DNA of 20,193 bases, taken from positions 1-20,193 of IMG/VR virus record IMGVR_UViG_3300031878_000050, one strand, 5' to 3'. Source of the stretch: a virus. The position numbers and the translations under genes are program-made. Shown piece by piece: positions 87 to 20,193 of this stretch; the first letter of the stretch is position 1, and the number at the start of each line of letters is the position of its first letter. The notes beneath the pieces were generated by a model. That model did not search any database, was not told the origin of the DNA, and was given only the letters and a program-made list of their open reading frames with translations.

Positions 87-90
87 GAGA

Positions 91-4112: not shown

Positions 4113-4144
4113 AGCTTTGTCCTCCTTGCGTCGAGTTGCCAGGT

Positions 4145-4159: not shown

Positions 4160-4228
4160 CTCGGGTATTACTGAGCGACTCTAAGCCGCATAAAATCCGC
4201 GTGTACACGAAGTATTGGGAGTTCCATC

Positions 4229-4837
4229 ATGCTTGCCAGTGGGAAAGAGTTGTTAGATATTGTCTCACGTTGGGAAAACGTTTTAGCTACCCATCAACGT
4301 GGGGGAAACCTTTGCTCTTATGGTCTAGGTTATGCAGGATACGATCTAAGATTGTCCAATCAATTCCGCATTCCTAGTTTGTACTACGTGAATCCAGGTA
4401 AGAATCGTTCCGTAATTCAACCCAAGGGGATGTACACATTTATCAATGGTGCAATACCCCAATTCAAGTATAACAAGACAGTCTCGCCATTGAATCCCTA
4501 TGAGCACTACGTTGATGTTGTTGTTGAAAGCAATATCCTAGTACTACCTAGCTACACTACAATCCTTGCTCACTCTATTGAGAAGATCGTAGTACCTGAG
4601 AATTATCTAGGAATTTGTCTCGGGAAGTCTTCATATGCACGCATAGGCCTACTAGTAAACACTACACCAGCGGAACCTGGATGGAGAGGCAATCTCGTTA
4701 TTGAGCTAACGAACCTGTCGCCATGGAAAATTGAGCTACGCATTGGTGAAGGGATCGCACAGATGCTTTTTCTCAAGCTAACTGATAAGGCTACGTATCA
4801 AGGTCGTTGGCAAGATCAGAAGCTACCAAAGGAGTAA
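4229..4837 (+). CDS. dcd: dCTP deaminase
   Basis: Deaminates dCTP to dUTP, or directly to dUMP if bifunctional, feeding thymidylate synthesis by ThyX downstream. The family pattern is clear: YDLRLSNQF near residue 38 (the conserved 'xDLRLg' strand), LGKSSYAR (131-138) with the triphosphate-binding region, a TPAEPGWRG loop, and VIELTN carrying the catalytic glutamate (E159). GEGIAQMLF follows, and the end has the YQGRWQDQKLPK tail typical of dCTP deaminases. At 202 residues it is of normal length. ATG 4229 follows a weak GGGAG. The thyX start lies 3 bases after its stop, with the thyX ribosome site AAGGAG in its last codons, so the two are translationally linked. Confidence 0.9.
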   Translation: MLASGKELLDIVSRWENVLATHQRGGNLCSYGLGYAGYDLRLSNQFRIPSLYYVNPGKNRSVIQPKGMYTFINGAIPQFKYNKTVSPLNPYEHYVDVVVESNILVLPSYTTILAHSIEKIVVPENYLGICLGKSSYARIGLLVNTTPAEPGWRGNLVIELTNLSPWKIELRIGEGIAQMLFLKLTDKATYQGRWQDQKLPKE

Positions 4838-4840: not shown

Positions 4841-5578
4841 ATGGAAGTTTACCTAATCGCTAAGAGCCAACCTATCTATCACACAATCTCTCAGTGGTTA
4901 TCTAAACACCACGTGGACTATAAACCCACAACAACGCATTCAACTGAGGCTATCGCAGAATATGCGGGGAGAGTTTGCTACGACTCATTCGCTAACCCGC
5001 GTCCAGGTGGAACGCAAGCCTACTTAGAGAACATCCTCAAGCAGGGTCATGGTTCGGTTTTGGAGCATTGCGTGTACACTTTCGCATTCGTTGGGTTATC
5101 TCGTGTATGCACGCATGAGCTAGTGCGTCATCGCGCGGGGTTCTCTTATTCCCAACGTAGTCAACGCTATTGCGATGAAGGTTGCATGAGTGTTGTTGAC
5201 CCACTACAAGGTGTAGAGAGAGGAGATAAACTAGGAGAGGAGATAGAGGAATGTATCAACCGTAGTCGTGAGTTATACGACAAGATATGTTCTCTTCTAG
5301 AGAGAGAAGGCTATCAACGCAAGGTAGTAAGGTCAGTTGCTAGATACTTCCTCCCCCAAGGAATTAGCACGGAAATTGTAGTGACAGCTAATGCACGTTC
5401 CTGGAGGCACTTCGTGGAAACACGTGGATCAAGTCATGCAGATAGAGAAATTAGGTTACTCGCGAACAAGGTCCTTGATAAACTACTAGAAGATTCCCCT
5501 AATCTTTTCGGGGACTACAAGCGTGAACCCTTGGGAGACGGTACATGCGAGATAACAACGGAATGGGAAAAGGTGTAG
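4841..5578 (+). CDS. thyX: Flavin-dependent thymidylate synthase
   Basis: Makes dTMP from dUMP with FAD, NADPH and methylene-tetrahydrofolate. Hallmarks in order: HGSVLEH (70-76), the ThyX signature region RHRAGFSYSQRSQRY (96-110), RYFLPQGISTEIVVTANARSW (168 on) with the N/R residues that bind flavin and dUMP, and RGSSHADREIR (195-205). Length 245 is normal. The signature has one more residue than the usual RHRX7S: the serine falls after eight, not seven, intervening residues. It has a strong ribosome site (AAGGAG) and overlaps the next gene by 34 bases. Together with dcd and the reductase it forms a self-contained dTTP supply route. Confidence 0.93.
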   Translation: MEVYLIAKSQPIYHTISQWLSKHHVDYKPTTTHSTEAIAEYAGRVCYDSFANPRPGGTQAYLENILKQGHGSVLEHCVYTFAFVGLSRVCTHELVRHRAGFSYSQRSQRYCDEGCMSVVDPLQGVERGDKLGEEIEECINRSRELYDKICSLLEREGYQRKVVRSVARYFLPQGISTEIVVTANARSWRHFVETRGSSHADREIRLLANKVLDKLLEDSPNLFGDYKREPLGDGTCEITTEWEKV

Positions 5579-7209
5579 CACCTTCTCTCTTTGCTCATGC
5601 GAAGTGGAGGGAAACCCTATCGGGAATTGATGGGGTTTCTCTCTTTGTCGATATATCCGAGTTACCCGAAGGGGTGTTAGTCCTAGCACCTTCGCAGAAA
5701 GCGGAGAGGTTTTTCAAGACTCAGGGGATACGTTGCCTAGAGGTTGAAGACTACGACAACGTAGAGCACGTATTGCAGAGGGTAAAAAGCGTTCTCTCTC
5801 TAGGGGAAAAGGGTAAGGAAAAACCAAGGGAAAAGAAGGAAGACAAACCTAGTGAAGAGACTAAGGTAGTGAAACTAAAGACTCAGGCTAAGGTTGTGGA
5901 GTTTCTAGAGAAGTACATGGAAAACAACAACTACTATGTTTATAACCACCAGATTGTGCACCTAACACCTAGTGGACTGAAAAAGGTAGATAGGGACTAT
6001 CTCGCCAGGGATGTTATTCGACACTACGAGTTGATATTCGATGGTAAGGACTACATTCCTGCGGATAGGTTGTGTGGTCTTGCACTCTCAGGTGTTTCGT
6101 TGAAGACAATCTCTGCTCATCGCAACTACCCCGTTTACTGTCCACTTGCGACCGATAGTGTCTTGTGTCCCAAGGTTGAACCCACAAAGTTTACATCTAA
6201 GGTTGGTGATATACTCACTAGTGTGGAGAGTTACTTCTCAGTGCTAGGTGTACGGTTCAAAGACGTTCACTCCATGGCTTCTACGCTAGCTGCATTGCTT
6301 ACTCCTCTTGTCTATGTCCCTAACAACCCCATCTGGGTAATCACTTCATCAACCCCAGGTGTTGGAAAAACCCTGCTAGCGCAATCTGTTTTCGCTTTAG
6401 CGACTGGAGAGATAATCCCTGTTACTCCTTATCCCGATAGTGACTCTGAGGCAAGAAAGCAAATAACATCCGCACTACTATCTAACCGTCCTGCACTAAT
6501 CTGGGATAATCTATCTAAACCCCTTGGTGGACCATCAATCGACGCACTGGTCACTTCAAGGTTGTGGAGAGATAGAATCCTAGGGCGTTCTCAGATGGTG
6601 GAACTGACGAAGTTCATTACTCTTGCATGCACAGGGAATAACGTATCACTTACCGCGGACACCTATCGTAGGGTTTACGTTACTCACCTTGAACCCGTCG
6701 GGGACAAACCTGAGTCTAGGTTGTTCACTAAAGACTTGGTAAACGAGTGTATCAACAAGCATAAGCAATTCGTCAAGGATGCAATGGGTTGGTTGGCGTT
6801 CTACGAAAAGCAAGGTTATGTTCCCCAGAGGGGGTTTGGATCGTTTGAACAGTGGAATGCAGTCGTAGGTGGATTTGTTGAATGGTTGTTAGGTGTACAC
6901 CCCGCGGATACATCGGAGAGCATAGTGTCTGAAGACAAGGAGTTACTAGAAAGGTTCCTAGTGAATTTCCCCTATGGGGATTACACTAGTGTGGAGGATA
7001 TACTGAAGGATTGCCAATCGACTATGTTTGGGAATGTGTCCAAGGAATTTGTATCCACAGTCAAAGAGATAACACCTAAACTACTAACTAAGGAACTGTC
7101 CCAGTGGTTGATGAGACATGAAGGTAGAGTGATCGCTGGTAAGGTTATCACTTCAGTGAAGCAGAAGGGAGTGAGGCTATATGCAGTCAAAGAGGTTAGA
7201 TCAGTCTGA
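5545..7209 (+). CDS. P-loop replicative helicase-like protein
   Basis: Probably unwinds the origin or fork during replication. The C-terminal half has an AAA+/superfamily-3-like ATPase: Walker A STPGVGKT (269-276), Walker B PALIWDN (316-322), sensor-1-like ACTGNN (361-366) and a basic pair RR (375-376) soon after. This is the arrangement seen in phage and plasmid primase-helicase C-terminal domains. The N-terminal ~85 residues form a small alpha/beta domain, followed by a charged lysine/glutamate linker (about 87-112); no primase catalytic motif is recognisable. ATG 5545 has GGGAG upstream and overlaps thyX by 34 bases; ATG 5563 is an alternative. No DNA polymerase lies nearby, so host polymerase recruitment is likely. 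Confidence 0.75.
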   Translation: MRDNNGMGKGVAPSLFAHAKWRETLSGIDGVSLFVDISELPEGVLVLAPSQKAERFFKTQGIRCLEVEDYDNVEHVLQRVKSVLSLGEKGKEKPREKKEDKPSEETKVVKLKTQAKVVEFLEKYMENNNYYVYNHQIVHLTPSGLKKVDRDYLARDVIRHYELIFDGKDYIPADRLCGLALSGVSLKTISAHRNYPVYCPLATDSVLCPKVEPTKFTSKVGDILTSVESYFSVLGVRFKDVHSMASTLAALLTPLVYVPNNPIWVITSSTPGVGKTLLAQSVFALATGEIIPVTPYPDSDSEARKQITSALLSNRPALIWDNLSKPLGGPSIDALVTSRLWRDRILGRSQMVELTKFITLACTGNNVSLTADTYRRVYVTHLEPVGDKPESRLFTKDLVNECINKHKQFVKDAMGWLAFYEKQGYVPQRGFGSFEQWNAVVGGFVEWLLGVHPADTSESIVSEDKELLERFLVNFPYGDYTSVEDILKDCQSTMFGNVSKEFVSTVKEITPKLLTKELSQWLMRHEGRVIAGKVITSVKQKGVRLYAVKEVRSV

Positions 7210-7672: not shown

Positions 7673-8155
7673 ATTCTCCCAAGAGAGAAAGATAGAGTAA
7701 TACTTGTCGTCAACAGGTAGTACAGTTTTCACCACGTCACAAACCGCGTCAATTGAATTCACAGGGTCCATGAGGTTGTAAGGTTGATGCACTGAGCATA
7801 TCACTAACACTTTAGGTTTGATTGTATCTAGACTCATGTTTTCAACGATTAGGTTGTCCATCAATATCTCTCTCCATAGATCATCCGACTCCTTAGCTGC
7901 TTGAGTTTTGAAAACACACTTAGACCTAAAGGACGTTCTCCACCTACGGTTTTTTGACACTCCAGCGATCAAAGGTAGCGTACACCGTCGCACTACCCTA
8001 ACCAGTCCATGCTCAACTTCCCTTTCCAACACTCGATCGAGCAACGTTTCCCCGATTGGGGTTTGCCCCAGTGGAGCACGTTCCCCAGATACCTGGGTTT
8101 TGTCACCGCTTCCGTTTCCGTTTGTTGAGAAAAAACGCTTCCAACGCTTTCCCAT
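7619..8155 (-). CDS. RusA-like Holliday junction resolvase candidate
   Basis: The frame is open to 8209, but ATG 8155 is preferred because AGGGGG lies just upstream; the protein is then 178 residues. After a poorly conserved N-terminal ~60 residues comes LIAGVSKNRRWRTSF, like the early substrate loop of RusA proteins, and later LMDPVNSIDAVCDVVKTVL and PVDDKYYSIF, which align with the RusA D-x-D-N...D-x-L...D-D active-site region; the second aspartate of D-x-D-N is valine here. RusA enzymes cut branched DNA so that it can be packaged. It overlaps the 3' end of the sigma-like gene by 54 bases and the DHH gene by 163 bases. An unrelated small endonuclease is also possible. Confidence 0.45.
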   Translation of the reverse strand: MGKRWKRFFSTNGNGSGDKTQVSGERAPLGQTPIGETLLDRVLEREVEHGLVRVVRRCTLPLIAGVSKNRRWRTSFRSKCVFKTQAAKESDDLWREILMDNLIVENMSLDTIKPKVLVICSVHQPYNLMDPVNSIDAVCDVVKTVLPVDDKYYSIFLSWENSKVRERFVEIEVWARVF

Positions 8156-9345
8156 CCTTTGCCCCCTATAAACCTTGTAGGTGGATTGAGGCATGCAATC
8201 TCTAGGCATTCAATGACCCTAGTATCCTCTGTGTGCTCAGGTTCTAGTGTAGGTTCCTCTTGCGATTTATGCTCTTCTATCTTGGATTCTATCTCCCTTA
8301 GGAAGTCTTCTAGATTCTCCTTGGGAATGTAACCACCACCAGCGTATTTGTGACCACCTAACCTGCCTAGGCCGGTTAGGAATATAGGTTGTAGATTGCA
8401 TGATGACGACCTGATACTTAGCCTATACACTCCACCATCGTCAAAGCATGCTATACCTACAGGTTTTCTCTTGGCTTCTCTAGAAGCTAGATACGAGATA
8501 TGACCCTGGAATTCTCTAGGGTAGATAGCTATAGACACTCTTTCACTCTCTAACACCCGTAGGGGTTGGGCACTACGTGATTGAATTTTTCTTTCCTCAT
8601 TAGCCTTTTTGATGAGCCTTAGTGTCTCCGCGGAGGGATTGCGTAGGAATTCCCAAGCGTATTCAACCTTACCTATCCTAGCGCAAGAGTTGATCCTAGG
8701 TACTACGTGATAGCGGATATGACTAGGTGAATGCAACCTTCCCCAAGGTGTATCGTCACTCCAGTTATCTAGGAATGTGGTTGTAGTATCGTAGTCAACA
8801 CTACAGTAATCCCCAAGCGTTCCAATCAATGCAAGGGGTGTTGTGTAGTGGTTACCAAAAAGGTGTTGGGCAATTAGACTAGTACACGGGGTAATTTCGT
8901 GTTCTCTTGAGTGTGGGTTTATGATGTTTGCCTTTCCCCTAGGTTGGTAATCTTCAGATTGGTGGTGATCGATGATCAGAACGTTATAGTTATCATACAA
9001 CCCACTTGAATACTCGGGTGAACCGCGGTCTAATATAACATTCAGAGAATCTCTATCCAAATAGTCCTCACGCACCACAAACCCATCGCTACGGTTGAAA
9101 AGTCTTATGGAGTAAGGTTTTGCGTGGCGATCTAGATATAATGAGAGAATAGCTCCAGCAGTTAGTCCATCCGCATCGTAGTCTATAATGAGGTTTATCT
9201 TTGATGCTTGATCCACTATATTCCTAACAGTGAACCTGTCACAAAACGACCAGTTGAAAACCTTTCTCAAAGGAGACAAGATATGCGTAATGATTCCCCT
9301 GAGATTTTCCGGAAGTATGTTTTCGATGTGGTAGAGACTCTTCAT
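7993..9345 (-). CDS. RecJ-like DHH-family single-strand exonuclease
   Basis: A 450-residue DHH phosphoesterase. Motif I is IIDYDADG (53-60), the DHH motif is VLIIDHH (122-128), a TLGDYCSVD stretch near 176-184 fits motif III/IV, and RINSCARIGK (217 on) plus the terminal GLGRLGGHKYAGGGYI (325-340) match the RecJ core and DHHA1 domain. RecJ removes 5' single strands in repair and recombination. It lacks the OB-fold region of full-length RecJ. Residues after about 375 look unlike the rest and overlap the RusA-like gene in another frame, so the natural end may be shorter or the overlap real. The start at 9345 overlaps the terminase gene on the other strand, and no good ribosome site is seen. Confidence 0.85.
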   Translation of the reverse strand: MKSLYHIENILPENLRGIITHILSPLRKVFNWSFCDRFTVRNIVDQASKINLIIDYDADGLTAGAILSLYLDRHAKPYSIRLFNRSDGFVVREDYLDRDSLNVILDRGSPEYSSGLYDNYNVLIIDHHQSEDYQPRGKANIINPHSREHEITPCTSLIAQHLFGNHYTTPLALIGTLGDYCSVDYDTTTTFLDNWSDDTPWGRLHSPSHIRYHVVPRINSCARIGKVEYAWEFLRNPSAETLRLIKKANEERKIQSRSAQPLRVLESERVSIAIYPREFQGHISYLASREAKRKPVGIACFDDGGVYRLSIRSSSCNLQPIFLTGLGRLGGHKYAGGGYIPKENLEDFLREIESKIEEHKSQEEPTLEPEHTEDTRVIECLEIACLNPPTRFIGGKGWESVGSVFSQQTETEAVTKPRYLGNVLHWGKPQSGKRCSIECWKGKLSMDWLG

Positions 9346-9546
9346 TACTTCGCTATGAACCCCGATGAGGAAAACAAGCTTCGTGTAAAAGCTTGCGAGA
9401 TACTTCTGAGATATTTACCCGATACTACCGCGTATCTAGACACCATTGACCGCCTGGAGCGTATCGAACAGGAGCTAGGTATTGAATCCGTCGGTCTTGA
9501 GGATGACGATGATGACAGTGAAGAGGATGAGGAAGCGGATGAATGA
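9283..9546 (+). CDS. Putative terminase small subunit (87 aa)
   Basis: The frame is open from 9208, but ATG 9283 is chosen because AAAGGAG (9269-9275) sits seven bases upstream. The protein is helical (RKYVFDVVETLHYFAMNP; NKLRVKACEILLRYLP) and ends in a strongly acidic tail (DDDDDSEEDEEADE). The large terminase start ATGA overlaps its stop, the usual layout of terS-terL. Small terminases bind the packaging site and stimulate TerL. The assignment is mainly from position, size and the 'vRl-A-eilL-r' type helix; the sequence is not diagnostic. Its 5' end overlaps the divergent DHH gene by 63 bases. Confidence 0.55.
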   Translation: MRNDSPEIFRKYVFDVVETLHYFAMNPDEENKLRVKACEILLRYLPDTTAYLDTIDRLERIEQELGIESVGLEDDDDDSEEDEEADE

Positions 9547-10973
9547 AAAGGGACATCCAGAAGAGATTAGAGCGTATCTCCAAGGTACTAGCCTCACTCA
9601 AAAGTAAAAAGGTTCCACCTAATCCTGGTAGGTATTCTATTGCATGGTTACGCAGTGTAGTCCCTAGTTACTTCCAACTAGAATCCCCTGAGTTTCACAA
9701 TAAAATAGCAGATGCACTAAACGATCATGACAAGATAGTGATCACTGCACCTAGAGGATCAGCTAAAAGCACGGTCATAACTCTAGGTTATCCCCTCTAC
9801 ACAATCTTATACCACAAGCGCATCAAGTATATACTCATCGTTAGTGATACATTTTCACAAGCTAGCAAGCTTCTCTCCTCAATCGCTCATGCACTAGATA
9901 CCCTAGGTGTAAACCATCAAGCTAGTGCATCGCGGATTATCGTGGGTTCTACGCTTGTAGAAGCCTTGGGAACAGGTTGCAGAATCCGAGGGAGAAGATG
10001 GAGAGAATCTAGACCGGAATTGATCATCTTAGATGACCCTCAAGGCCACATGGACCTAATTTCCCCTTCGGTTAGAGAATCCCATTGGGACTGGTTTCTA
10101 CGTGATCTTATCCCCGCGGGTTCACGTACATGTAAGTATATCGTTGTAGGTACAACAATTCATGAAGACAGTATAGTGCACAAACTATCATCCCAATGGT
10201 CTAGTCTGACATTTCCTGCTCTCACTCTCCCCGAGAGAATAGACTTGTGGCAACAGTGGTATAAACTTCCTCAAGGGGAACGTGATACCTTCTACACACA
10301 AAACAAGGATGAGATGGAAAAGGGTGTCACACTTCTGTGGAGGGAACGCTGGAGTCTTGAATCCCTCATGGAGGCCTACTTTTCTCTAGGTGAAGACGTT
10401 TTCCGTAGTGAATACCTACAACAACCTGGTTTAGGTGCAGTGTACCCCCTATTTCTACCATTTATCGACGATGACGCTTTTGTGGATACTATCCCAAGTA
10501 ACACCTACTGTAGTGTTATTGCAATTGACCCTGCATACTCAACAAAACGATCCGCGGACTGGTGCGCGGTAACTACTCTCTACGTTAGCTACGATAGCTC
10601 CACGATCTACGCCCATTGTGATTGCTCTAAGGGAGATTGGGTAAACTTCGCGGTTGAGAAGATACTATTGCATAGACCCCTCAAGGTTGTCGTGGAGTCT
10701 AACGCAACGTTGGGGACTGCATTGCAGTTGGTGAGAGATGGTTTTGCGGAATTGTACGACAGTGGCCAGTTTCCACAATTCCTTGCACACATGTGGACAT
10801 CGGGACATAATAAGCACAACCGTATCGTTACGGGAATCATGGGGGTAATAAAGGGGAACAGACTAAGGATAACTAGATCATCAACAGAGCTAGTCCAGGA
10901 GATAAAGTCTTATCCCAACACTAAGCATGACGATGCATTGGATTCACTATGTCTTGGGTTGTTGTACCTGTGA
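9543..10973 (+). CDS. terL: Terminase large subunit
   Basis: ATP-driven motor and nuclease that packages DNA into the prohead. Walker A is APRGSAKST (69-77), Walker B LIILDD (160-165) with the catalytic acid, and VVGTTIHED (201-209) fits the coupling motif. The C-terminal RNase H-like nuclease has its metal ligands at AIDPAYS (D329), KVVVESN (E385) and KHDDALDS (D463/D464). All key residues are present and the 476-residue length is normal. It overlaps the preceding gene by four bases (ATGA) and ends 31 bases before the convergent end of the portal gene; that gap is T-rich on the plus strand but holds no clear hairpin. Confidence 0.95.
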   Translation: MKRDIQKRLERISKVLASLKSKKVPPNPGRYSIAWLRSVVPSYFQLESPEFHNKIADALNDHDKIVITAPRGSAKSTVITLGYPLYTILYHKRIKYILIVSDTFSQASKLLSSIAHALDTLGVNHQASASRIIVGSTLVEALGTGCRIRGRRWRESRPELIILDDPQGHMDLISPSVRESHWDWFLRDLIPAGSRTCKYIVVGTTIHEDSIVHKLSSQWSSLTFPALTLPERIDLWQQWYKLPQGERDTFYTQNKDEMEKGVTLLWRERWSLESLMEAYFSLGEDVFRSEYLQQPGLGAVYPLFLPFIDDDAFVDTIPSNTYCSVIAIDPAYSTKRSADWCAVTTLYVSYDSSTIYAHCDCSKGDWVNFAVEKILLHRPLKVVVESNATLGTALQLVRDGFAELYDSGQFPQFLAHMWTSGHNKHNRIVTGIMGVIKGNRLRITRSSTELVQEIKSYPNTKHDDALDSLCLGLLYL

Positions 10974-11004
10974 GCTTTTCTGTTGGGTTTTGGCTTTTGC
11001 TAAC

Positions 11005-14000
11005 TTATAGTACCCTTACGGACCTCAATATCATCCTCCACCGACTTTCGTAGCCTTTTCTGCGGTATATACCAGCCTTTTCAGGTACTAACTTTACCTT
11101 GCCTCCTCTTTTCTTTTCAATTCCCTTATAAAACTCTATCCTATCAGGTCTAAATCTGACTAATGTAATAGGTTGATAGTTTATCTTTTTGATGTCGTCT
11201 TGGGACATATTCTTTATGTACTTAGAAAGTGACGAAAGTATCATCTTAGTATAATCCAGCTTGAAGCACTCTTCTCTATTGCCAGTACCTTTGCTCCAAT
11301 CTACTTTATCACATTTATTAGCCTCTAGAGCGTTTTCAATATCTCTTATGTGCTTGTTTAGAGCTATACTTCTTGCCTCAGGTTCATTGATTACCAGGAC
11401 ATTACCTAGTATATTCTCAACCTTGTCGCGTATGAACCATTTACCTTGTGGATAGTTGCCCTGCGGTTTTCTCTCAAAGTTGTCTGATATTAGTTCTGAT
11501 ATTTTGGTCATATCGCTAAACTCCTTTTCTGGAGTGTTACTACTCTCAGTCATATGCATCTTGTGTGACATTGGAATTATTGAGTAAGTGCCATCTTTAT
11601 TCCTCTTAGTCATAATGTTATCAATCCCAGGGAATTGTGGGTTGTAAGCCATACCTGCACCATGGATTCTCGCCCATGCTTCCTCATTACCTCTGCGAGC
11701 TATCTCGGCTGTACCGTAAGAGAATATGCATCTTAGTAGTATAGACTCAATTACCTGCTTCCTTTTATCCTTATCTTGTATCTGCATTATACTATCAGCT
11801 ATTTTCTTTGCTCTTTTATCATCTCTGCTTTTACTTTCTTTTTCACCCAACGATCCGTGGATATTTGGACATTCCTTTATCACACTTTCCAGTAAATCTG
11901 ATAATTCCTTGTCAGACATAGTTCCGCCGAGAATTTTTCCTGTGTTACTAATAACCTTTGCATATGTCTTTTCGTTTACCGAAATAAAGGAGCCAAAAGC
12001 AAAACTTGACAAAGAATCGCTAATCCGAGCGTTCTGTAGATACGGAATCTTGCCCGCCAGGGTCTTGAGTAATGCTGACCTTAGCATAACCTTTTGATGC
12101 TCTTGTATCCCATCCTCAATAGAACCTAGTGTCATTGCGCCACCCAAAAATTGGGCCATATTTTTAGGAGTAAAATCCATCTTGCCCATCGCGTACCTTA
12201 TATCTCTTTCGTTTGGCGTACCTTCAGGAAGATCAATTCGGTGGCCCGACTTTATTGAATCGTCTAGACTATCAATAGCTGTTTGTGCAATTATATCTAA
12301 GATAGGTGTAGCCGCACTTTTTCTCTTTTCCTTATCAACATTTTCTATCTCCTTCCTTACTCTTCTTACAGCCGATAATATAACCCTGTTTAGCTGTTTA
12401 TCACTTGCATTTTCTATTTCCGTTATTGTAAAGAGCTTGTTTACCTTGTCATCACCTTGTACGGCTTTAGCTAACTGCCTCATTACCTCTCGTTTTACTT
12501 TGGGTGGATAAGATGATAAATCTTTTAGATACGCTAAAGCAACAACGGAAGATGATAAATAAGTCACTTGTCCCATTAGCTTCTGTCTCTTGTTATGATC
12601 AGCTTCATTGGCTGCCTCTGCATATATACTCTCCATCTTTCTTATGGTGCCTTTTGAGATGCTTTCAACAGCCTTGCTAACCCATGGGTTTGGTTTGCTG
12701 CCCGTAGATGTCTTTCTCCACTGCTTATCACCGTGTTCACACCCTAAAACATACGGGCTTTTATCTCCAGGTTTCCAACCACTGCATCTTTGTACTGTTT
12801 CACATTCACCTGTAAGTTTTCTCATGACATCGAAGTTTTCCTTTTCGCACTCCTCCTCTCTCAAAATCCTGCTTCCAGGGGGATTGAGATAGTCCCTAAA
12901 CTTCTTGGGTTTAGTCTTTTCCTTGTCTTCCAAAACACCTTGCTGCTCGCTACCTACACCATACTTGCTGAGCAATTCTCTCCACTTTTTTCTCTGAGCG
13001 AGTGTTTTCCGTGGATCACGTCCACGCTTATGCAGATACTCTATCTCACTCAGTAATCCAGATTGCAATTCCCCCCGAAGTATTTCTACCTGCCTTGCCT
13101 CATCAGCCATGATGACACTTGGAAGTCTCACTACAGGTTGCACCCTTTGGAGTGTTTTTCTCTCTAACCAACCCAATCTTTCTGCAAGCCTGACAAACGT
13201 AGTGCAGAGTTGTCCAAAGATAGCCGCGTAGTCTGCCTGCATGGATTCAATGCGTCTGACAAAAGGTGATCCACTTACTAGTGCGGACGCATAGGCTTCA
13301 GGACCCTTAGTGACCCAATCCGGTAAACACCACTGAAGCGAAAGCAAATGCAATATGCTTGCACATGTGTCGATATACCTTTGGGGGTCAGAAGTTGGTC
13401 CAGGTTCGTATTCCTTACCTTGGTTTACTGAGAGTACTGTACCTGGATCAATGTTCCTAGCGTTAGGATCAATCCCATAAAAAGATGGGGACAGGTTAGG
13501 TGTGCCTGGTTTGAAGGGTCCAAATGACGTTGTACCTGTATCCTTGGTTGATATTGAGTGTGCAAGTATTTGATCAGACAATGCTCCAGGATACTTCTCG
13601 ATCCATGCAATGGAAGCTTGGGCTTTTGATGATATTGTTACACCCCGTAGGAGTTGCCATAGGTGTGCGAAGTCTATTTCGACATTCGCAATCTCGGGTA
13701 GCCCACGCTTCACGTTCCTGTCTGCATTCCTACGACCATAGACCATGTACCTACGGTGTACGTAGTCCCATTCACCTTGGTTGGGATAGTAAACCCAATA
13801 ACCCCTGATGTTCTCGTTGTCGTCAATCTCAGTAACTATCCCCCAAGTGTGAGAGAATTTTTCATCAAGGTCGATAGGTGGTGTGCGTACCTGCTCAGGT
13901 TCCACAAAGCGCAACACTAAGGGGTAACCTACATTCTTCACGAAAAACCTTATAAAAACTTCCCCATCACGCAACCAGCGTACACGAATTTCCTTTTCCC

Positions 14001-14367
14001 TGTCTTGCGACAATTCACCCGTGGTGAGATAACCTGAATCTCCTAAGCAATTCACCCGAGAGAATTTTTCCCACAGTTTATTCACCTTGCGTGCAAGAGA
14101 CTTGTCTCCAACCCATTCTACATGTGGTTTACCTATGTGGTCTATAAGTATGTTGATGATACCCTTCACGACGGGGTTTCTCTCATACGCAAAGCGCGAC
14201 CATGCAATCGTTTGCCAGAGTTGAGAGTCTGACCAATAACCTATTTGTGTTTGACTTGGACCTGTTACACGGTCAACAGGAATAGACGACGAGAAGCGTT
14301 GGTTGTAAATATCCCATTGGTATGAACCAAAGAATATCTGGTTGATTAGGTTATTTACAGGGAGCAT
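11005..14367 (-). CDS. Portal protein with a ~645-residue C-terminal extension of unknown function
   Basis: ATG 14367 is chosen over an upstream in-frame TTG at 14385 because AAAGGTGG precedes it (1120 residues). Residues 1 to about 475 read as a lambda-type portal: many aromatic N-terminal residues, RVRWLRDGEVFIRFFV, RRNADRNVKRGLPEI near 217-230 (the 'RgvP' stretch of this family), and SALVSGSPFVRRIESMQ near 370. The portal ring forms the packaging vertex. From about residue 475 to the end the sequence matches nothing I know. It is lysine-, isoleucine- and serine-rich, uses ATA and AGA/AGG codons far more than the portal part, and begins with a charged linker followed by spaced cysteines (CEKENF...GECETVQRC...GCEH) that could bind metal. 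The gene is inverted relative to its terminase and capsid neighbours. Confidence 0.8.
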   Translation of the reverse strand: MLPVNNLINQIFFGSYQWDIYNQRFSSSIPVDRVTGPSQTQIGYWSDSQLWQTIAWSRFAYERNPVVKGIINILIDHIGKPHVEWVGDKSLARKVNKLWEKFSRVNCLGDSGYLTTGELSQDREKEIRVRWLRDGEVFIRFFVKNVGYPLVLRFVEPEQVRTPPIDLDEKFSHTWGIVTEIDDNENIRGYWVYYPNQGEWDYVHRRYMVYGRRNADRNVKRGLPEIANVEIDFAHLWQLLRGVTISSKAQASIAWIEKYPGALSDQILAHSISTKDTGTTSFGPFKPGTPNLSPSFYGIDPNARNIDPGTVLSVNQGKEYEPGPTSDPQRYIDTCASILHLLSLQWCLPDWVTKGPEAYASALVSGSPFVRRIESMQADYAAIFGQLCTTFVRLAERLGWLERKTLQRVQPVVRLPSVIMADEARQVEILRGELQSGLLSEIEYLHKRGRDPRKTLAQRKKWRELLSKYGVGSEQQGVLEDKEKTKPKKFRDYLNPPGSRILREEECEKENFDVMRKLTGECETVQRCSGWKPGDKSPYVLGCEHGDKQWRKTSTGSKPNPWVSKAVESISKGTIRKMESIYAEAANEADHNKRQKLMGQVTYLSSSVVALAYLKDLSSYPPKVKREVMRQLAKAVQGDDKVNKLFTITEIENASDKQLNRVILSAVRRVRKEIENVDKEKRKSAATPILDIIAQTAIDSLDDSIKSGHRIDLPEGTPNERDIRYAMGKMDFTPKNMAQFLGGAMTLGSIEDGIQEHQKVMLRSALLKTLAGKIPYLQNARISDSLSSFAFGSFISVNEKTYAKVISNTGKILGGTMSDKELSDLLESVIKECPNIHGSLGEKESKSRDDKRAKKIADSIMQIQDKDKRKQVIESILLRCIFSYGTAEIARRGNEEAWARIHGAGMAYNPQFPGIDNIMTKRNKDGTYSIIPMSHKMHMTESSNTPEKEFSDMTKISELISDNFERKPQGNYPQGKWFIRDKVENILGNVLVINEPEARSIALNKHIRDIENALEANKCDKVDWSKGTGNREECFKLDYTKMILSSLSKYIKNMSQDDIKKINYQPITLVRFRPDRIEFYKGIEKKRGGKVKLVPEKAGIYRRKGYESRWRMILRSVRVL

Positions 14368-14370
14368 GCT

Positions 14371-15792
14371 ATGCCACCTTTGCAAGGGAAAACTAAGACA
14401 TACTCTAACCTAGTTTTAGTGGGTCCAAAGTCTGTCAACAACAGGATTTATGCCCCAGATGTTTTGCGTAAAGCAGTCGAAGACGGTTTATACGACGGTG
14501 TACCTATTTTCCTGGACCATGAGGAGAAAATACAAACCTTAGTAGGTAGAGTAACCAAGGCCTATTGGGATGAAGATAAAAACTGCATCCGCGGAGATAT
14601 AGAGATATACGATTCACCATATTCTAGTATCATTGATATAATCATCAACGTTTTCGGGGGTGAATTTGGGTTCTCCCATGTAGTTGAGGCGGAAGTTGAT
14701 GAAGATAAGGAATCGGGAAAGGAATACGTAAAGCACATCAGTAAAGTGAAGTCTGTCGATCTTGTCACTGATCCAGCTACCACTAGGGGTATAAACGAAG
14801 TGCAGGAGCGAGTGATGAACGCAATAAGGAGTGTCATCAAGGAATCCAGGATCAGAAAACTAAAGGAATGCGGGGAAAACACAACGGTCAACATGCAGTC
14901 TTTAGGTGTTGTTGATAGTCTAATCCAGTCCTACTATAATGGTGAGATTAGTCTCCATGCACTAGTAAAACTTTTAGAGATACTTTCTCAAGGTGAGTTG
15001 AGGGAAAGCGTAGAGAGAAAAGAGTGTTGTCAGGAGAGTGAGGGTAAAACTATGCCTAAGAGAAAACTAAAGGAGCAGGAATCCGACTTCATGAAGGATG
15101 AAGTGCTCAACAACAAAGACAAAAAGGTTGTCGATAGTGAGGATACACTGGAACAGGAAGAATATAAGGAAAAAGAGGATGAGACTTTAGAGGAAGGTGA
15201 AGACTTAGAAAACGTAGAAGATGGTGAAGAGAGTGAAAATAAGGAATTTGAAGAGGAAGGGGTTAGTGAAGAAGATGGAGAATTGAGTGACGAGGAATTA
15301 GAGGAATATGATGAAGAGGATATGGAAGGTGAAGGTGACGAAGATTTAGAAGAGGAAATGAATAAAGAGGTTGAAGAAGATTACAAATGGGATAAAGATG
15401 TAGAAGAGGATCACGAGGGTTATGAAGGTGATCACGAAGACAAGGAGCTAAAGGAAAGCAAGAAACGTAATAAAAACAAGACAAAGCAAATAAAGGAAAG
15501 TGTACTATCGCTCAAGCGTGAGTTGAACCTGACACGCAAAAAACTACGGGAGAGCCAGAAGTTACTAGAAGAGATTGTAAAGAGTCGTTATGTACCTTCG
15601 TTGAAAGAGTATAAGATCATTTCTGAATCTAAGGACCCTGTAGGTCTAATCAAAATCCTTAGTGAAAAGCGTGTGGTTGTCGCTAAGAGTAAACCTAAGA
15701 CAATCTCAGAATCCCGCAATAACACTCAGCAACCCGACGAATGGGACCAGATGATTGAGGAGGTCCGCAGACGTAAGGGCCTAATTCGATGA
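14371..15792 (+). CDS. Prohead maturation protease fused to an acidic scaffold
   Basis: Residues 1 to about 150 form a prohead protease: VGPKSVNNRIYAPDVLRKAV, FLDHEE with the likely catalytic histidine (H50), VGRVTKAYWDEDKNCIRGDI, GGEFGFSHV with the likely nucleophile serine (S102), and VKSVDLVTDPATTRGINE, the conserved last strand. Residues about 250-360 are dominated by glutamate and aspartate, followed by a basic coiled coil (about 362-405), as expected for a scaffold that fills the prohead and is then digested. ATG 14371 follows GGGAG. The start lies three bases from the divergent portal start, each ribosome site being inside the other gene. An in-frame internal start (15052) could give scaffold alone, as in lambda C/Nu3. 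The next gene overlaps by ATGA. Confidence 0.85.
   Translation: MPPLQGKTKTYSNLVLVGPKSVNNRIYAPDVLRKAVEDGLYDGVPIFLDHEEKIQTLVGRVTKAYWDEDKNCIRGDIEIYDSPYSSIIDIIINVFGGEFGFSHVVEAEVDEDKESGKEYVKHISKVKSVDLVTDPATTRGINEVQERVMNAIRSVIKESRIRKLKECGENTTVNMQSLGVVDSLIQSYYNGEISLHALVKLLEILSQGELRESVERKECCQESEGKTMPKRKLKEQESDFMKDEVLNNKDKKVVDSEDTLEQEEYKEKEDETLEEGEDLENVEDGEESENKEFEEEGVSEEDGELSDEELEEYDEEDMEGEGDEDLEEEMNKEVEEDYKWDKDVEEDHEGYEGDHEDKELKESKKRNKNKTKQIKESVLSLKRELNLTRKKLRESQKLLEEIVKSRYVPSLKEYKIISESKDPVGLIKILSEKRVVVAKSKPKTISESRNNTQQPDEWDQMIEEVRRRKGLIR
15052..15792 (+). CDS. Possible internal in-frame start: free scaffold (246 aa)
   Basis: Methionine 228 of the protease-scaffold protein (MPKRKLKEQ) is preceded by GTGAGG at a workable distance and lies just before the acidic segment. 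Starting here would make the scaffold without the protease, parallel to the nested Nu3 gene of lambda. The ribosome site is moderate, so this is a suggestion. Confidence 0.35.
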   Translation: MPKRKLKEQESDFMKDEVLNNKDKKVVDSEDTLEQEEYKEKEDETLEEGEDLENVEDGEESENKEFEEEGVSEEDGELSDEELEEYDEEDMEGEGDEDLEEEMNKEVEEDYKWDKDVEEDHEGYEGDHEDKELKESKKRNKNKTKQIKESVLSLKRELNLTRKKLRESQKLLEEIVKSRYVPSLKEYKIISESKDPVGLIKILSEKRVVVAKSKPKTISESRNNTQQPDEWDQMIEEVRRRKGLIR

Positions 15793-16382
15793 GCGACGGT
15801 ACCTGCGTGTATGGTCTTGCTCTCAGTAACTACCAAGGGATATGCATGTCGATTGCGAGTACAATTGACATGCTAAAGCCTAGGGAATACGTAGAGCTAG
15901 AACCTGGACCTTTATCACCTATAGACTACCTAAAAAGTGCGTCAAGGGTTCTCTGTAGTCCAACTGAGAATTATTCGGAGTATCTCAGGGGGATACGTGA
16001 TGCCAAGAGTGAATGGGGTGACGATGTACGTATCTTTACATCCCATCCTGTTGACGCTGTGAGGTTTTTCAATGCACCAGGCACACTGTTCTACTTCTCT
16101 AGGTTTGTAGGTTGTCAAAGCAAGGAATGCCCATTTTGCATGAGTTATAACGATGAAGGTTTTGAATTAGCGTATGTAAACTTCATGAATCTCATGAAAC
16201 TTTATGGTGATAAGTCTCAACTTGTATTTCCATTCTGTTCTAAGTTCCTACTAAATAGTGAAAACATACCACCTGATCTACAAATACTTTGGAGTGTGAA
16301 GGTTACAGATAAAGTCTTTCTCTCACTTATGAGGAAACTACCTGAAGATAGGGGGAATAAAGCATGTCGATCCAACCTGTAG
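15789..16382 (+). CDS. Head-operon protein of unknown function with a CX4CX2C cluster (197 aa)
   Basis: The start codon overlaps the protease-scaffold stop (ATGA, 15789-15792), so it is translationally coupled in the head operon. The sequence has no family I know. A cysteine cluster, CQSKECPFC (C109, C114, C117), with a further cysteine at 150, looks like a zinc-binding site. The region around it is aromatic (LFYFSRFVG, YVNFMNLMKLYG). It overlaps the next gene by 19 bases. Place in the operon suggests a structural or assembly role; the cysteine cluster is unusual for a capsid protein. Confidence 0.75.
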   Translation: MSDGTCVYGLALSNYQGICMSIASTIDMLKPREYVELEPGPLSPIDYLKSASRVLCSPTENYSEYLRGIRDAKSEWGDDVRIFTSHPVDAVRFFNAPGTLFYFSRFVGCQSKECPFCMSYNDEGFELAYVNFMNLMKLYGDKSQLVFPFCSKFLLNSENIPPDLQILWSVKVTDKVFLSLMRKLPEDRGNKACRSNL

Positions 16383-17122
16383 TCGGTTTACCTGGGGTTT
16401 ATCCACCTAAGCTTTCTGTCCGTCGGGAAATCTTCCTTCATCCCGATAGGGTGTCCTATCGCTACTCGGGTCGGTTCTTGCATAAGTATGCTAGGGATTG
16501 GGAAAATCCTTTATCACCTAACACACTAAAAGCAGGAACGCCTCTCGCCTTGAGAAGGTTACGTTTTCCAGGTGATTCTCAGGCCAAGCTTTATTGGTTC
16601 CCTGCTGTTTTGACAAACAACCACTCGTCAGATACAAACAAAATAATACTTCCCGCTGCATTCAGAAATTACTCCTACATGTTTGGTGTAGGCTGTAGAT
16701 TTACAAGAGTAAGGTTAGACCTAAACCGCGTACTTCAATTTAGCACTGTCGAAGCTACAGGAGTGAATGTTACCGATTCTGGTGTAGATATTACTGTTGA
16801 TCCATCTAACTCGGTAGGACAAGGATGGGCAAACCAATCAATCTTGTTATACTCTGGTTTTGAAGGTCCTTCTGCTGGTAATAGCCCACTAGAGCATTAC
16901 GTAGCCTTTTCCGTTCTCCCCAGTGATACTCTCTTAGGTGATGATGACATACAGCTACATCATTACCCATGGAGTGGTATCGTGAGGGGTGATATGCTAT
17001 ATCCAAGACGACCCTCTGGGCAAGACACAGCGAGGAACGTTGTGCTAAGGAGATTTTTGAAAGCTGCTGCTGCGTCTGGTCTCTCTAGTCTCCTTGTTGA
17101 CGAGGCTCTTTTTGAAGAATAA
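16364..17122 (+). CDS. Putative head-associated protein (252 aa), unknown family
   Basis: ATG 16364 has AGGGGG upstream and overlaps the previous gene by 19 bases. The protein looks mostly beta-stranded, with many short hydrophobic/aromatic stretches (ILPAAFRNYSYMFGVGCRFTRVRL; FSTVEATGVNVTDSGVDITV) and a C-terminal helix (VVLRRFLKAAAASGLSSLLVDEAL). It sits immediately before the major capsid gene, the place of the decoration gene D in lambda, but it is twice that size and no similarity was recognised. A capsid decoration or minor head protein is the most likely role, from position only. Confidence 0.75.
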   Translation: MSIQPVVGLPGVYPPKLSVRREIFLHPDRVSYRYSGRFLHKYARDWENPLSPNTLKAGTPLALRRLRFPGDSQAKLYWFPAVLTNNHSSDTNKIILPAAFRNYSYMFGVGCRFTRVRLDLNRVLQFSTVEATGVNVTDSGVDITVDPSNSVGQGWANQSILLYSGFEGPSAGNSPLEHYVAFSVLPSDTLLGDDDIQLHHYPWSGIVRGDMLYPRRPSGQDTARNVVLRRFLKAAAASGLSSLLVDEALFEE

Positions 17123-17153
17123 CTAAGGTCTAGCTAGATAGGAGTGATAAACC

Positions 17154-18251
17154 ATGGCTTACAGTGTAAGGGACATTCTCTCGTGGGTCCCCTTGACGAA
17201 AACCGTGCAAGTCGTCAAAGAGGGGCTACCCAAGGTTTTACCCAAGGAATTCTTCTCTATTGAGGAAAAGGTTAGTGGGCATGTTGCGCGGGTAATCGAA
17301 TATCGTGGAACCCGTCAAACTGCAAGGGTTGTACCTTATGGTGCACCTGCTCCCTTGGGGAGAAAGCTTGAGCTTAGCTCTAGGGACATTGTGTTACTCT
17401 CTGCACGCGAGCAGATTCCCTTCCGTGAGGAATTGGTCTTCATCTTGCGGAATTGGGAGAAGTATCAACCACAGCAAAAGTGGGCTATGCAGGAGATTAT
17501 CTACCAAGGTGAGCAGATGCGCACAAGGTTTGATAACCTTGAAGTCGCAGCTTTGCTGATGTCGTTAGCTAGAGGTGAAATCTACCTTGATAACGAAGGG
17601 AATCTTATACCAACCGCTGCAGGAGCTGAGGTTATAATCTCCCAAGGGATACCTGATATCAATATCACTGGTAGAACCGGAAATCAAGTGGATGCAATTG
17701 TCAACAACTGGCACAACACAAGCACAAACATACCTCAACAGATTGTTGACATCCGCAAGCATGCTGTGCAAAGAACAGGGTATCCACTAAAGTATGCAAT
17801 CTATGGTCGGAATGTCCTAGGACACATGGCTCGCAACGAGGCTCTGAGATACTTCTGGGCAAGAGCTATCGATTACAACCAGGAATTCCTTGAAACTTCC
17901 TACATCCCCAAGGAGTTTCTAGGACTAACCTGGATTCCCGCGGCTGAGGCGTTCTTTGAAGATCATAATGGTACAGTGCGCGAAATCTTTGGACCCAACA
18001 ATATCGTATTTACCCCTGAGATTACAGAAGAGACTTACACGATGTACCGTGGGAGTGAGTTAGTACCTACCATGCTGAGTGCAACCTATAAAGACGGTCA
18101 GGATGCGTTGGGAAGCCTTGCGGAAGTGTTTGGTCGCGGTCGCTACGCTAAAGTGTTAGACAATCCCGTACAGATTATTGATGTTGGGTTCTCTGTCTTC
18201 TTACCACGGTTGAAGGTTCCCAATGCGTACTATATCTGCAACGTGGGATAA
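17154..18251 (+). CDS. Major capsid protein, lambda gpE type (HK97 fold)
   Basis: Forms the icosahedral shell. The 365-residue sequence follows the capsid protein E family: an N-terminal arm ending LPKEFFSIEEKV, then RQTARVVPYGAPAP, which resembles the strand and 'pRG.P' turn; the E-loop/spine region with QMRTRFDNLEVAALLMSLAR and GEIYLDNEGNLIP (121-153); a mid-domain KYAIYGRNVLGHMARNEALR; and a late GPNNIVFTPE followed by a C-terminal part ending in short strands. Length is close to lambda gpE (341). ATG 17154 follows AGGAG. It comes 31 bases after the previous gene, and is followed 16 bases later by a small gene, the same order as lambda E-FI. Confidence 0.85.
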   Translation: MAYSVRDILSWVPLTKTVQVVKEGLPKVLPKEFFSIEEKVSGHVARVIEYRGTRQTARVVPYGAPAPLGRKLELSSRDIVLLSAREQIPFREELVFILRNWEKYQPQQKWAMQEIIYQGEQMRTRFDNLEVAALLMSLARGEIYLDNEGNLIPTAAGAEVIISQGIPDINITGRTGNQVDAIVNNWHNTSTNIPQQIVDIRKHAVQRTGYPLKYAIYGRNVLGHMARNEALRYFWARAIDYNQEFLETSYIPKEFLGLTWIPAAEAFFEDHNGTVREIFGPNNIVFTPEITEETYTMYRGSELVPTMLSATYKDGQDALGSLAEVFGRGRYAKVLDNPVQIIDVGFSVFLPRLKVPNAYYICNVG

Positions 18252-18267
18252 TCATAAGGAGTGAAAC

Positions 18268-18579
18268 ATGGAATGGGTTGCTAATCTCCTAAAGGTTCGT
18301 GGTAAAGAGATTCCAGACTATAGAGTTGACACTATCTCAGAATGGGTATCTGAATTCAAAACCAAGGAAGGTAGGCTTCCTAGTAAGGAGGAGGTACTAG
18401 ATCAAGTGGCCTACTTGTGTAGAGTGAACTTATGGAATCTAAGCACAATCGAAAGAGTAAAGGAATTCGTGTTCGGTGAGAAGGTGGAGAAACCACCACA
18501 GAATCCCACTGAGGCGTTGGCTAAGGAGTTAGGGATTGGTGTTGAAACAAATGAAACAAAAGAGGAAAAAGCTGAATGA
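18268..18579 (+). CDS. Small protein after the capsid gene (103 aa), unknown
   Basis: ATG 18268 follows AAGGAG (18256-18261), only 16 bases after the capsid stop, so it belongs to the head operon. The protein is helical and charged (YRVDTISEWVSEFKTKEG; SKEEVLDQVAYLCRVNLWNL), then has a proline break (EKPPQNPTEAL) and an acidic/lysine tail. In lambda-like phages this place holds a packaging or head-completion gene (FI, or the head-tail connector). The sequence does not confirm either. It is the last plus-strand gene; no tail gene follows. Confidence 0.7.
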   Translation: MEWVANLLKVRGKEIPDYRVDTISEWVSEFKTKEGRLPSKEEVLDQVAYLCRVNLWNLSTIERVKEFVFGEKVEKPPQNPTEALAKELGIGVETNETKEEKAE

Positions 18580-18800: not shown

Positions 18801-19205
18801 TTATGCCTCTAGGTAAATGTCGTTTTGCAATCGATAAGCCAATAACCTATCACCTTCCTTTAGATACATCCTGTCGGTTATGAGGATAAAAGGCTTAGTC
18901 CCACTATATGGGTTACCATCGACAGGGGGATAGACCTTGTAAACCTTGTAACCACCTAGGAGTATAAAGGGGTTGGCCTTTAGCATTAGTACTAGTGGAC
19001 TAGTTGTAGCGAATTCACCCACAACCAGATCACGCATGTCGTTCCGGTTTACTGCGACTAGGTATCGAATGTGCAGCAGGGCAAGAGCAACAAAAAGCGT
19101 TACACCAAGCACAAGCGTTAGGCTAGCATTCCCCATTGCAATCGCAATCAAAAGGGCGAAGGGGACAAGGCTACTGGCGTAGATCGACAACCTTACCAGT
19201 TTCAT
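18801..19205 (-). CDS. Small membrane protein with two N-terminal helices (134 aa)
   Basis: Two hydrophobic segments close together (about residues 5-24 and 28-48: LVPFALLIAIAM; LTLVLGVTLFVALALLHI) form a membrane hairpin. A cytoplasmic or periplasmic domain of about 85 residues follows, beta-rich by pattern (YKVYKVYPP; KPFILITDRMYL). Start ATG 19205 has an excellent ribosome site (AAAGGAGG) and overlaps the stop of the preceding gene (ATGA), so the two are coupled. Size and two helices would allow a holin-like or host-membrane role, but the long soluble tail is unusual for a holin, no endolysin is seen, and the gene is in an operon read from the TIR promoter. Function unknown. Confidence 0.75.
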   Translation of the reverse strand: MKLVRLSIYASSLVPFALLIAIAMGNASLTLVLGVTLFVALALLHIRYLVAVNRNDMRDLVVGEFATTSPLVLMLKANPFILLGGYKVYKVYPPVDGNPYSGTKPFILITDRMYLKEGDRLLAYRLQNDIYLEA

Positions 19206-19732
19206 GACACTACCTCCTTTACCGCCTCTGTAGTATTATTCGCTTCTTCAATGTGAAGATTACGCAAAATCTCCGTAAAGACTTGCCTCCAGATACGTTC
19301 ATGGACCCTGACATACAAGAAATCCACCAGTGCGGTGACACCGGATTCGTCTTTCTTTACACTGTTCAGAACACGTACTAGACCAATGAATTCCTTGTCT
19401 TGAGTGTCCAGTACTACATCTCGACCAGTATAAACTAGATGCAAGATACTGAGCAAAACAATTCGCTTTTGCACCAAGGATAGTCCGACTTCAGGTCGTT
19501 CGACTATAACTGTACTACCCTTCTCTGTGAAGTTTTTAGCCCAGGTCAACTGGTGGATTAGTCCCAGGAAGGGTTTATGTCTAGGGTCGTTTTCTATACC
19601 CTTTACTCCGTACATCTCAACGAAGTAGTTATCACGCATGGATTCAGGTGAAACGTTATACTGTAATCTTTCTTGCAGGGACAACCTGACTCCACTAACG
19701 TTTTCCGCACTACCTACAATGATCTTGGCCAT
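19202..19732 (-). CDS. Protein resembling the C-terminal half of an ABC/SMC-like ATPase, without P-loop (176 aa)
   Basis: ATG 19732 (MAKIIVGSAENVSG) is chosen over 19756 because GGGAGG precedes it. Residues about 77-120 read like the last part of an AAA_15/DUF3696-type ATPase: STVIVERPEVGLSLVQKR matches the Walker B/D-loop 'lliEqPE.hLHP..Q', and TGRDVVLDTQDKEFIGLV matches the H-loop 'g..vi.ETHSe.l..rl'. The switch histidine is replaced by glutamine (DTQD), and no Walker A motif is present anywhere in the protein. It therefore cannot be a complete ATPase; it may be a degenerate copy, a regulatory partner, or a split subunit. It is coupled to the downstream membrane-protein gene by a 4-base overlap. 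Confidence 0.7.
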   Translation of the reverse strand: MAKIIVGSAENVSGVRLSLQERLQYNVSPESMRDNYFVEMYGVKGIENDPRHKPFLGLIHQLTWAKNFTEKGSTVIVERPEVGLSLVQKRIVLLSILHLVYTGRDVVLDTQDKEFIGLVRVLNSVKKDESGVTALVDFLYVRVHERIWRQVFTEILRNLHIEEANNTTEAVKEVVS

Positions 19733-19733
19733 A

Positions 19734-19787
19734 TCAACCTCCCTTCTTAGGTACAAGAAGTCTATCCTTTACATCACCACAACGCAT
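19734..19787 (-). CDS. Possible 17-residue leader peptide
   Basis: A short frame (MRCGDVKDRLLVPKKGG, stop TGA 19734-19736) has AAGGAG at a proper distance before its ATG, and its stop ends one base before the next start codon. It may be a leader that couples translation to the following gene, or chance; its last codons include that gene's ribosome site. Confidence 0.3.
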   Translation of the reverse strand: MRCGDVKDRLLVPKKGG

Positions 19788-19805: not shown

Positions 19806-20060
19806 CTATTCCTGATTCTCTTCGCTCAACTTCTCCTCCTCAATCCTTTCAAGTCTTTCCCTAGTCCTTTCTAGCCTAGTGATCACCTTTTCGGGAACAT
19901 TATACTCAGACACTGTGTACCAATTGTTTATTCCTTTTCCCCCTTCAAAGGTAAACCCATCGGTGGCAATCAGAGCAAACCCATGCTCAGGGTAAAGAAC
20001 CTCAGAATCAACAAGCAGATAGTACTGATCGTAATCGTCTCTCACGTACCGAGCATCCAT
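19806..20060 (-). CDS. Small protein, paralogue of the left-end 82-aa gene (84 aa)
   Basis: First gene inward from the right TIR; ATG 20060 follows the TIR ribosome site AAAGGAGGA. The first ~60 residues probably form a beta-rich domain (YYLLVDSEVLY; GFALIATDGFTF; NNWYTVSEYNVPEKV), followed by a charged helix (ITRLERTRERLERIEEEKL) and an acidic end. It resembles the 725-973 protein: YVR near the start, G[YF]-x-x-I-x-T-D, W-x-V, then VPE-x-V at similar spacing. Two related proteins near opposite ends, both from TIR-type promoters, suggest duplication and an early function. No known family. Confidence 0.8.
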   Translation of the reverse strand: MDARYVRDDYDQYYLLVDSEVLYPEHGFALIATDGFTFEGGKGINNWYTVSEYNVPEKVITRLERTRERLERIEEEKLSEENQE

Positions 20061-20086
20061 CTTGTCTCCTCCTTTCTCTTCTCTCT

Positions 20087-20103
20087 TTGCTTCAACCTTT
20101 CAC
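20087..20103 (-). repeat. Conserved leader repeat, copy 3 of 3
   Basis: Inverted copy of GTGAAAGGTTGAAGCAA (also 91-107 and 434-450), here after the right-end promoter as part of the TIR. Confidence 0.8.
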
Positions 20104-20107
20104 TCTC

Positions 20108-20136
20108 ATTCTACTATCTACTTCGCAACTCGTCAA
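20108..20136 (-). promoter_or_regulatory. Promoter P4, inside right TIR
   Basis: Exact mirror of P1: TTGACG (20131-20136), 17-base spacer, TAGAAT (20108-20113), read leftward. It drives the right-end operon from 20060 down to about 18624, all on one strand with short gaps or overlaps. Confidence 0.85.
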
Positions 20137-20193
20137 GGGGCATTTTGCAGTTTTCCCCTTTTTCATCGAATCTTCACAATTCCCCACAGGGGT

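Follow-up and report, generated by a model that had tools for sequence, protein, structure and literature searches.

A head and packaging gene module without recognised tail genes on a virus contig with inverted ends

Results

The window analysed here is the whole 20,193-base contig IMGVR_UViG_3300031878_000050, which stands in IMG/VR as a virus record on its own. It encodes the head and packaging proteins of an HK97-type virus together with enzymes of nucleotide synthesis, it ends on both sides in an exact inverted repeat, and we find on it no credible tail gene. An earlier note, made from the sequence alone, had proposed such a head-only element between two inverted ends. The head region is organised as follows, with two distant phage loci, L039 and L187, for comparison:

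9286..9546, plus strand: probable small terminase, by position only (no family match; conserved; alternative TTG start at 9208)
9543..10973, plus strand: large terminase (phrog_38, E=5e-61)
11005..14385, minus strand: portal, whole gene (PF05136, 42.7 bits against a cut-off of 32.9; phrog_21, E=6e-34)
12889..14385, minus strand: portal core, residues 1-499 (82-96% invariant columns, 4 genomes)
11005..12888, minus strand: portal-fused extension of about 630 residues, strongly variable
14371..15792, plus strand: probable prohead protease fused to an acidic scaffold (similar to the same-position genes in L039 and L187)
15789..16382, plus strand: g15, cysteine-rich and highly conserved, no function assigned
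16364..17122, plus strand: g16, probable capsid decoration or surface protein (position ahead of the capsid gene; start conserved, middle variable)
17154..18251, plus strand: major capsid protein, lambda E-like family (PF03864, 30.5 bits against a cut-off of 22.9; phrog_29)
18268..18579, plus strand: small conserved protein of 103 residues following the capsid gene, no family

These family matches bear out the terminase, portal and major capsid genes named in the earlier note. The large terminase has a Walker A motif (APRGSAKST), a Walker B motif (LIILDD) and, by alignment, the invariant acidic residues of its nuclease half, and the small terminase candidate overlaps its start by 4 nucleotides. 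With an HK97-fold capsid protein, a large terminase and a portal all predicted, the region is an HK97-type head module (Duplodnaviria, Caudoviricetes). The protease-scaffold assignment is probable: a protease-like N-terminal part is followed by an acidic scaffold-like stretch, and the protein resembles the same-position genes of L039 and L187 (E=5e-8 and 1e-6, in a small search), but it has no library match; the same-position L039 gene likewise has no library name. The plain lambda order that had been described fails, because the portal lies on the strand opposite to the terminase, protease and capsid genes and because two extra genes separate protease from capsid. Portal and protease starts overlap head to head by 15 nucleotides (14371-14385), with no ordinary promoter space between them. 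By tblastn the capsid protein matched none of 50,697 phage records, which marks the lineage as new, and PDB sequence searches with the portal, g16, helicase, g18, g15 and capsid proteins returned nothing credible. The structure prediction for g16 (predicted local distance difference test score, pLDDT, of 43) was too poor for a fold search. By position alone, the gene at 18268-18579 is a possible head-completion or connector protein.

Among the scanned proteins, no credible tail, connector, lysis, polymerase or integrase family was found in Pfam and PHROGs at E up to 1, or for the ten proteins scanned against NCBIfam at E up to 0.1. Nor did any of these families match credibly when 18268-18579, the portal extension and g16 were scanned member by member with E allowed up to 10. 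We treated two kinds of hit as chance: one to a connector family on the ribonucleotide reductase (E=0.012) and a handful to single family members on the portal extension. To the sensitivity available, then, the claimed absence of tail, lysis, polymerase and integrase genes stands, and for the proteins without assigned function neither the library scans nor the PDB searches with g15, g16 and g18 gave a credible tail match, the models of g16 and of the portal extension being poor. In a positive control, the same library recovered genes for a tape-measure and a tail-completion protein that follow the capsid gene in L039, as well as tail-completion and tail-terminator genes in L187. In the window, the capsid gene is followed by the 103-residue gene and then by three short genes on the opposite strand, none of them longer than 184 residues; the contig thus has no room for a long tail.

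The portal itself is unusual in its C-terminal extension. The portals of L039 and L187, at 520 and 468 residues, do not have it. Across the extension mostly about 15-50% of columns are invariant, around one conserved island at residues 901-950 (about 885-946 by its sequence, FSYGTAEIARRGNEEAW..HGAGMAYNPQFPGIDN..SHKMHMTE), which looks like a functional core and has no library match. A low-confidence structure model (pLDDT 61) is mostly helical, and the nearest structural neighbours are T7-like internal virion proteins, a similarity that is not significant (E=0.02). Neither fold nor family searches gave the extension a significant match.

The ends of the contig carry the following features, where L005 is one of the close relatives described below:

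1..127, plus strand: left inverted-repeat copy (exact inverted copy at 20067-20193)
58-86, plus strand: sigma-70-like promoter, with a ribosome-binding site, reading inward within the left repeat copy
81-121 and 424-464, plus strand: promoter/leader element in two copies, 80% identical
401-429, plus strand: second sigma-70-like promoter, reading inward
725..973, plus strand: g2, small terminal gene (weak paralogue of 19806-20060; inverted at the right end in L005)
994-1022, plus strand: third sigma-70-like promoter (11/12; region kept in L005, but ahead of the right-end gene)
19806..20060, minus strand: g21, small terminal gene behind the right-end promoter
20067..20193, minus strand: right inverted-repeat copy (perfect match to 1-127)

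The two repeat copies agree perfectly over exactly 127 bp, and on both sides the repeat terminates in the promoter and ribosome-binding-site leader, shortly before a start codon. The inverted ends of the earlier note are thus exact; that the whole element lies between them is a weak step, given the assembler's k-mer length and the completeness base rate reported below. In Joint Genome Institute (JGI) metaSPAdes runs the largest k-mer is 127, a general setting not verified for the present sample, and literature searches for this setting and for the sample numbers gave no result. A de Bruijn assembly at k=127 leaves a repeat of just this length at a junction, and the contig ends may therefore be assembly stops. 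In the CheckV study, direct repeats at contig ends accumulate at assembler k-mer lengths, and more than 90% completeness was reached by 33.2% of IMG/VR contigs with inverted repeats versus 90% with direct repeats (PMC8116208). The inward promoters were picked by score and by placement before a leader and start codon, the total of promoter-like sites in the window being not above chance. Since these sigma-70-like promoters read inward, both ends are probably starting points of early transcription. The terminal genes g2 and g21 are weakly similar to one another, and their position shifts between the ends among relatives.

The capsid protein and the terminase, each used as a query against IMG/VR, found the same three contigs, from three samples. 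They are 95-98% identical to the window in both proteins and collinear with it, and all three lie inside its span save at the right end; none carries tail genes. At the right end of L005, g21 is followed by a copy of g2 with its downstream promoter, inverted relative to the left end of the window, and at the right end of L006, g20 is followed by the small gene that lies after the second promoter in the window, again inverted. Both contigs stop inside the repeat region. The left-end sequence they contain reaches to about window base 650 and 1,040, as opposed to the 127 bp repeated here. The left arms of the relatives were not recovered, and we infer the presence of the same genes at their left ends. 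Read most simply, this lineage has two ends that are inverted copies of one another over differing lengths, with sequence copied from end to end. Because the right ends of the relatives appear as inverted left-end copies reaching further in, the repeat is real, longer elsewhere and a stopping point for assembly, and a chimeric artefact is unlikely. Whether the window ends are physical DNA ends must be judged against these longer inverted end regions of L005 and L006 and against a repeat length that matches the assembler k-mer. We also checked whether L005 and L006 end on the right exactly 127 bp into the repeat, and dropped this idea because homology runs for ~200 and ~150 bp. A circular contig was rejected, as the relatives' right ends match the left end in inverted and not in direct orientation.

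The tested genes are under purifying selection (pairwise ratios of nonsynonymous to synonymous divergence, dN/dS, of 0.04-0.24). The portal extension, g16 and the terminal gene g20 are the most diverged, with dN of 0.30-0.34 and dS of 1.3-1.5, compared with dS of 0.1-0.9 in the other compared genes; each value uses whichever relative covers the gene, so the contrast is rough, and g10a was left out while g11 had too few changes. That dN and dS are both high in these three indicates exchange with divergent alleles. Further afield, a search for distant terminases in IMG/VR and GTDB gave matches mostly ~25-30% identical, and among these the portal is also shared only by L034, L035, L036, L039, L043 and L187. 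A capsid-protein scan of GTDB contigs found no relative, and 297 genomes of one phylum held none. This is a real, otherwise unknown virus lineage, with conserved gene content, an inverted portal gene and exchange between inverted ends.

The remaining genes of the window are these:

1067-1675 and 1627 or 1690-2187, plus strand: two genes, no family match
2217..4208, minus strand: class II (B12-dependent) ribonucleotide reductase (phrog_367, E=1e-133; PF02867 over cut-off; start uncertain, ATG near 4112 possible)
4229..4837, plus strand: dCTP deaminase/dUTPase-like (PF22769, 83.6 bits)
4841..5578, plus strand: ThyX thymidylate synthase (PF02511, 171 bits)
5545..7209, plus strand: P-loop helicase (phrog_29234, E=6e-27; phrog_19930, E=2e-9; tblastn to phages)
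7993..9345, minus strand: RecJ-like DHH exonuclease (PF01368, PF02272, phrog_2484)
18801..19205, minus strand: small protein with two predicted membrane helices (phrog_7312, E=4e-5, a family of unknown function)
19202..19756, minus strand: gene resembling part of PDC-M56A, an ATPase-like defence candidate (no Walker A)

The ribonucleotide reductase, the dCTP deaminase-like protein and ThyX confirm that the element has its own nucleotide-synthesis genes, as had been noted earlier. The relatives of the reductase are phage enzymes of ~40% identity and are uninformative. The helicase is akin to phage primase-polymerase proteins in their helicase portion and lacks the polymerase part. The RecJ-like gene and the probable small terminase overlap head to head on opposite strands (9208-9345), with no ordinary promoter space left. 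The protein of 18801-19205 is the sole clear membrane protein, is conserved in relatives and is the only holin-like lysis candidate. In the product of 19202-19756, residues 78-163 match positions 239-323 of PDC-M56A (E=2e-6), with a DEPE-like motif, VERPEVGLS; this is possibly a truncated ATPase that serves counter-defence or acts as a decoy. The window gave no tRNA and no match to an Rfam family. Its high IVYWREL fraction of 0.435, against a control set that goes up to 0.437, is only a hint of a thermophilic host, and the search for a host in the 297 genomes gave no DNA match and hence no spacer match.

Discussion

We tentatively favour a reading, at a probability somewhat short of even, in which the contig forms one arm of a larger genome whose tail genes lie beyond the repeat. 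The earlier note held a larger genome only as a refutation of its proposals and not as an explanation. Several observations together suggest that the genome probably extends beyond the contig: the 127-bp length of the repeat, the CheckV base rate, the relatives that stop within the repeat, the delivery device to be expected of a virus with intact terminase and portal, the lack of room for a long tail, and the tail genes that follow the capsid gene directly in relatives with the same terminase-portal-protease block. As the contig probably ends at an inverted repeat, the missing tail may lie elsewhere, on DNA that would continue past it.

Several points weigh against this. Two end or leader sequences and a promoter leader, searched for exactly in IMG/VR, where near-identical records may escape, found only L005, and a terminal-protein search for a partner contig likewise found only L005. 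The partner with a shared end and tail genes envisaged in the earlier note thus did not appear, L005 being without tail genes; the outer part of a longer repeat would differ in sequence, which limits exact end searches. None of the relatives crosses the repeat and reaches tail genes. Were the repeat just a longer one, assembly might have been expected to carry on into it. Swapping of terminal genes from end to end is also typical of truly linear genomes.

If the favoured reading of one arm is right, the contig would be the replication-plus-head arm of a new HK97-type (Caudoviricetes-like) bacterial virus, with an inverted repeat on either side where short-read assembly halts. Each repeat copy carries an inward promoter, and copying between ends would have made the repeats of the relatives longer. 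By sequence, the left arm makes deoxynucleotides with ribonucleotide reductase, a dCTP deaminase-like enzyme and ThyX and supplies the virus's own helicase, which unwinds its DNA, and a RecJ-like exonuclease. The genome would be copied by a host polymerase or by one encoded elsewhere. The protease-scaffold and capsid proteins would assemble a procapsid round the portal, the terminase would fill it, and a tail from genes outside the contig would be attached to the filled head. The genes for tail, lysis and any polymerase would most likely lie across the repeat on the same molecule. By a possible analogy, the arms may flip round the inverted repeats like the L and S arms of herpesviruses.

The three explanations offered earlier, a tailless virus, a second segment and a satellite, all account for a head without a tail; each assumes a complete element, and we consider an arm of a larger genome likelier than any of them. 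The strongest alternative to a tail encoded outside the contig is that the head itself delivers the DNA. On that view the ~20 kb contig would be a whole linear virus that has no canonical tail, its capsid performing adsorption and delivery, which we regard as unlikely. Inverted terminal repeats, inward promoters and gene exchange from end to end do resemble a linear genome. The best argument is the concentration of divergence in the portal extension and g16, the host-facing candidates, beside a nearly invariant portal core and capsid, although that contrast is rough because the relatives differ per gene; exchange with divergent alleles is usual for adsorption and ejection proteins. Variable g16 would be the surface or receptor protein, and the extensions on 12 portal subunits would form an internal ejection apparatus with a DNA channel, for which the T7-like neighbours of the extension, not significant, offer a parallel. 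For neither protein is any fold or family match significant, their structure models are poor, and no lysis gene is recognised. To our knowledge, every bacterial HK97-capsid virus with a portal delivers its DNA through a tail, and we know of none that lacks one. A self-sufficient ~20 kb HK97-type virus that ejects through the portal-fused 630-residue domain and adsorbs by its variable capsid-surface protein is, in all these particulars, less likely again.

It is improbable, on present evidence, that the contig is one of two segments, with tail, lysis and polymerase genes on a second molecule with the same or similar ends. Whole modules are missing alongside a rich replication and head set, and the promoter-bearing inverted ends are conserved as a site of exchange, both of which such a division would explain. 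Yet no second contig with the end sequence was found in IMG/VR, in a limited search that records of the same genome may escape, and a literature search found no segmented tailed phage.

A satellite with a head of its own making and tails taken from a helper phage, like the capsid-forming phage-inducible chromosomal islands (cfPICIs) or the Streptomyces Mulch satellite, fits worst of the three and is the least probable. Capsid-forming satellites are defined by their own capsid, protease, portal and terminase without tail genes, and the head and packaging genes here fit that definition (PMC10690885). Among the scanned proteins, however, there is no integrase, recognisable connector or HNH gene, and the contig carries ribonucleotide reductase, ThyX, dCTP deaminase, helicase and RecJ genes; the GTDB capsid-protein scan and the 297 genomes of one phylum also held no relative.

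Comparison with known systems places the contig nearest to lambda/HK97-type tailed phages with a phrog_38 terminase, such as the Paenibacillus phages Unity and Tripp and the loci L039 and L187. They share its terminase-portal-protease-capsid set, with terminases 25-30% identical and, in L039 and L187, similar portal and protease. The contig differs in its opposite-strand portal with the 630-residue extension, its two extra genes before the capsid gene, its lack of connector and tail genes after it, and its inverted repeat ends. The cfPICIs and the Mulch and Flayer satellites are alike in having head and packaging genes without tail genes, but they differ in the integrase, connector and HNH genes that we did not find on the contig and in the nucleotide-synthesis and helicase genes that it has; as to connectors, 18268-18579 has no family match but could be an unrecognised one. 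Phi29-like phages (Salasmaviridae) share a genome near 20 kb and inverted repeat ends, whereas the contig has no protein-primed DNA polymerase or terminal protein and has a canonical large terminase instead of a gp16-type ATPase. Herpesviruses provide an analogy in their HK97-fold capsid, portal, terminase and inverted repeats round genome arms, but the contig has bacterial-type promoters and phage gene families, and flipping arms are a hypothesis.

If the tail has truly been lost, moved to another molecule or borrowed, this lineage would test whether tail and head can evolve separately, and it would bear on the origin of tailless HK97 lineages such as the herpesviruses. Even with a tail beyond the repeat, it represents a new lineage with an inverted, extended portal gene and gene exchange between inverted ends.

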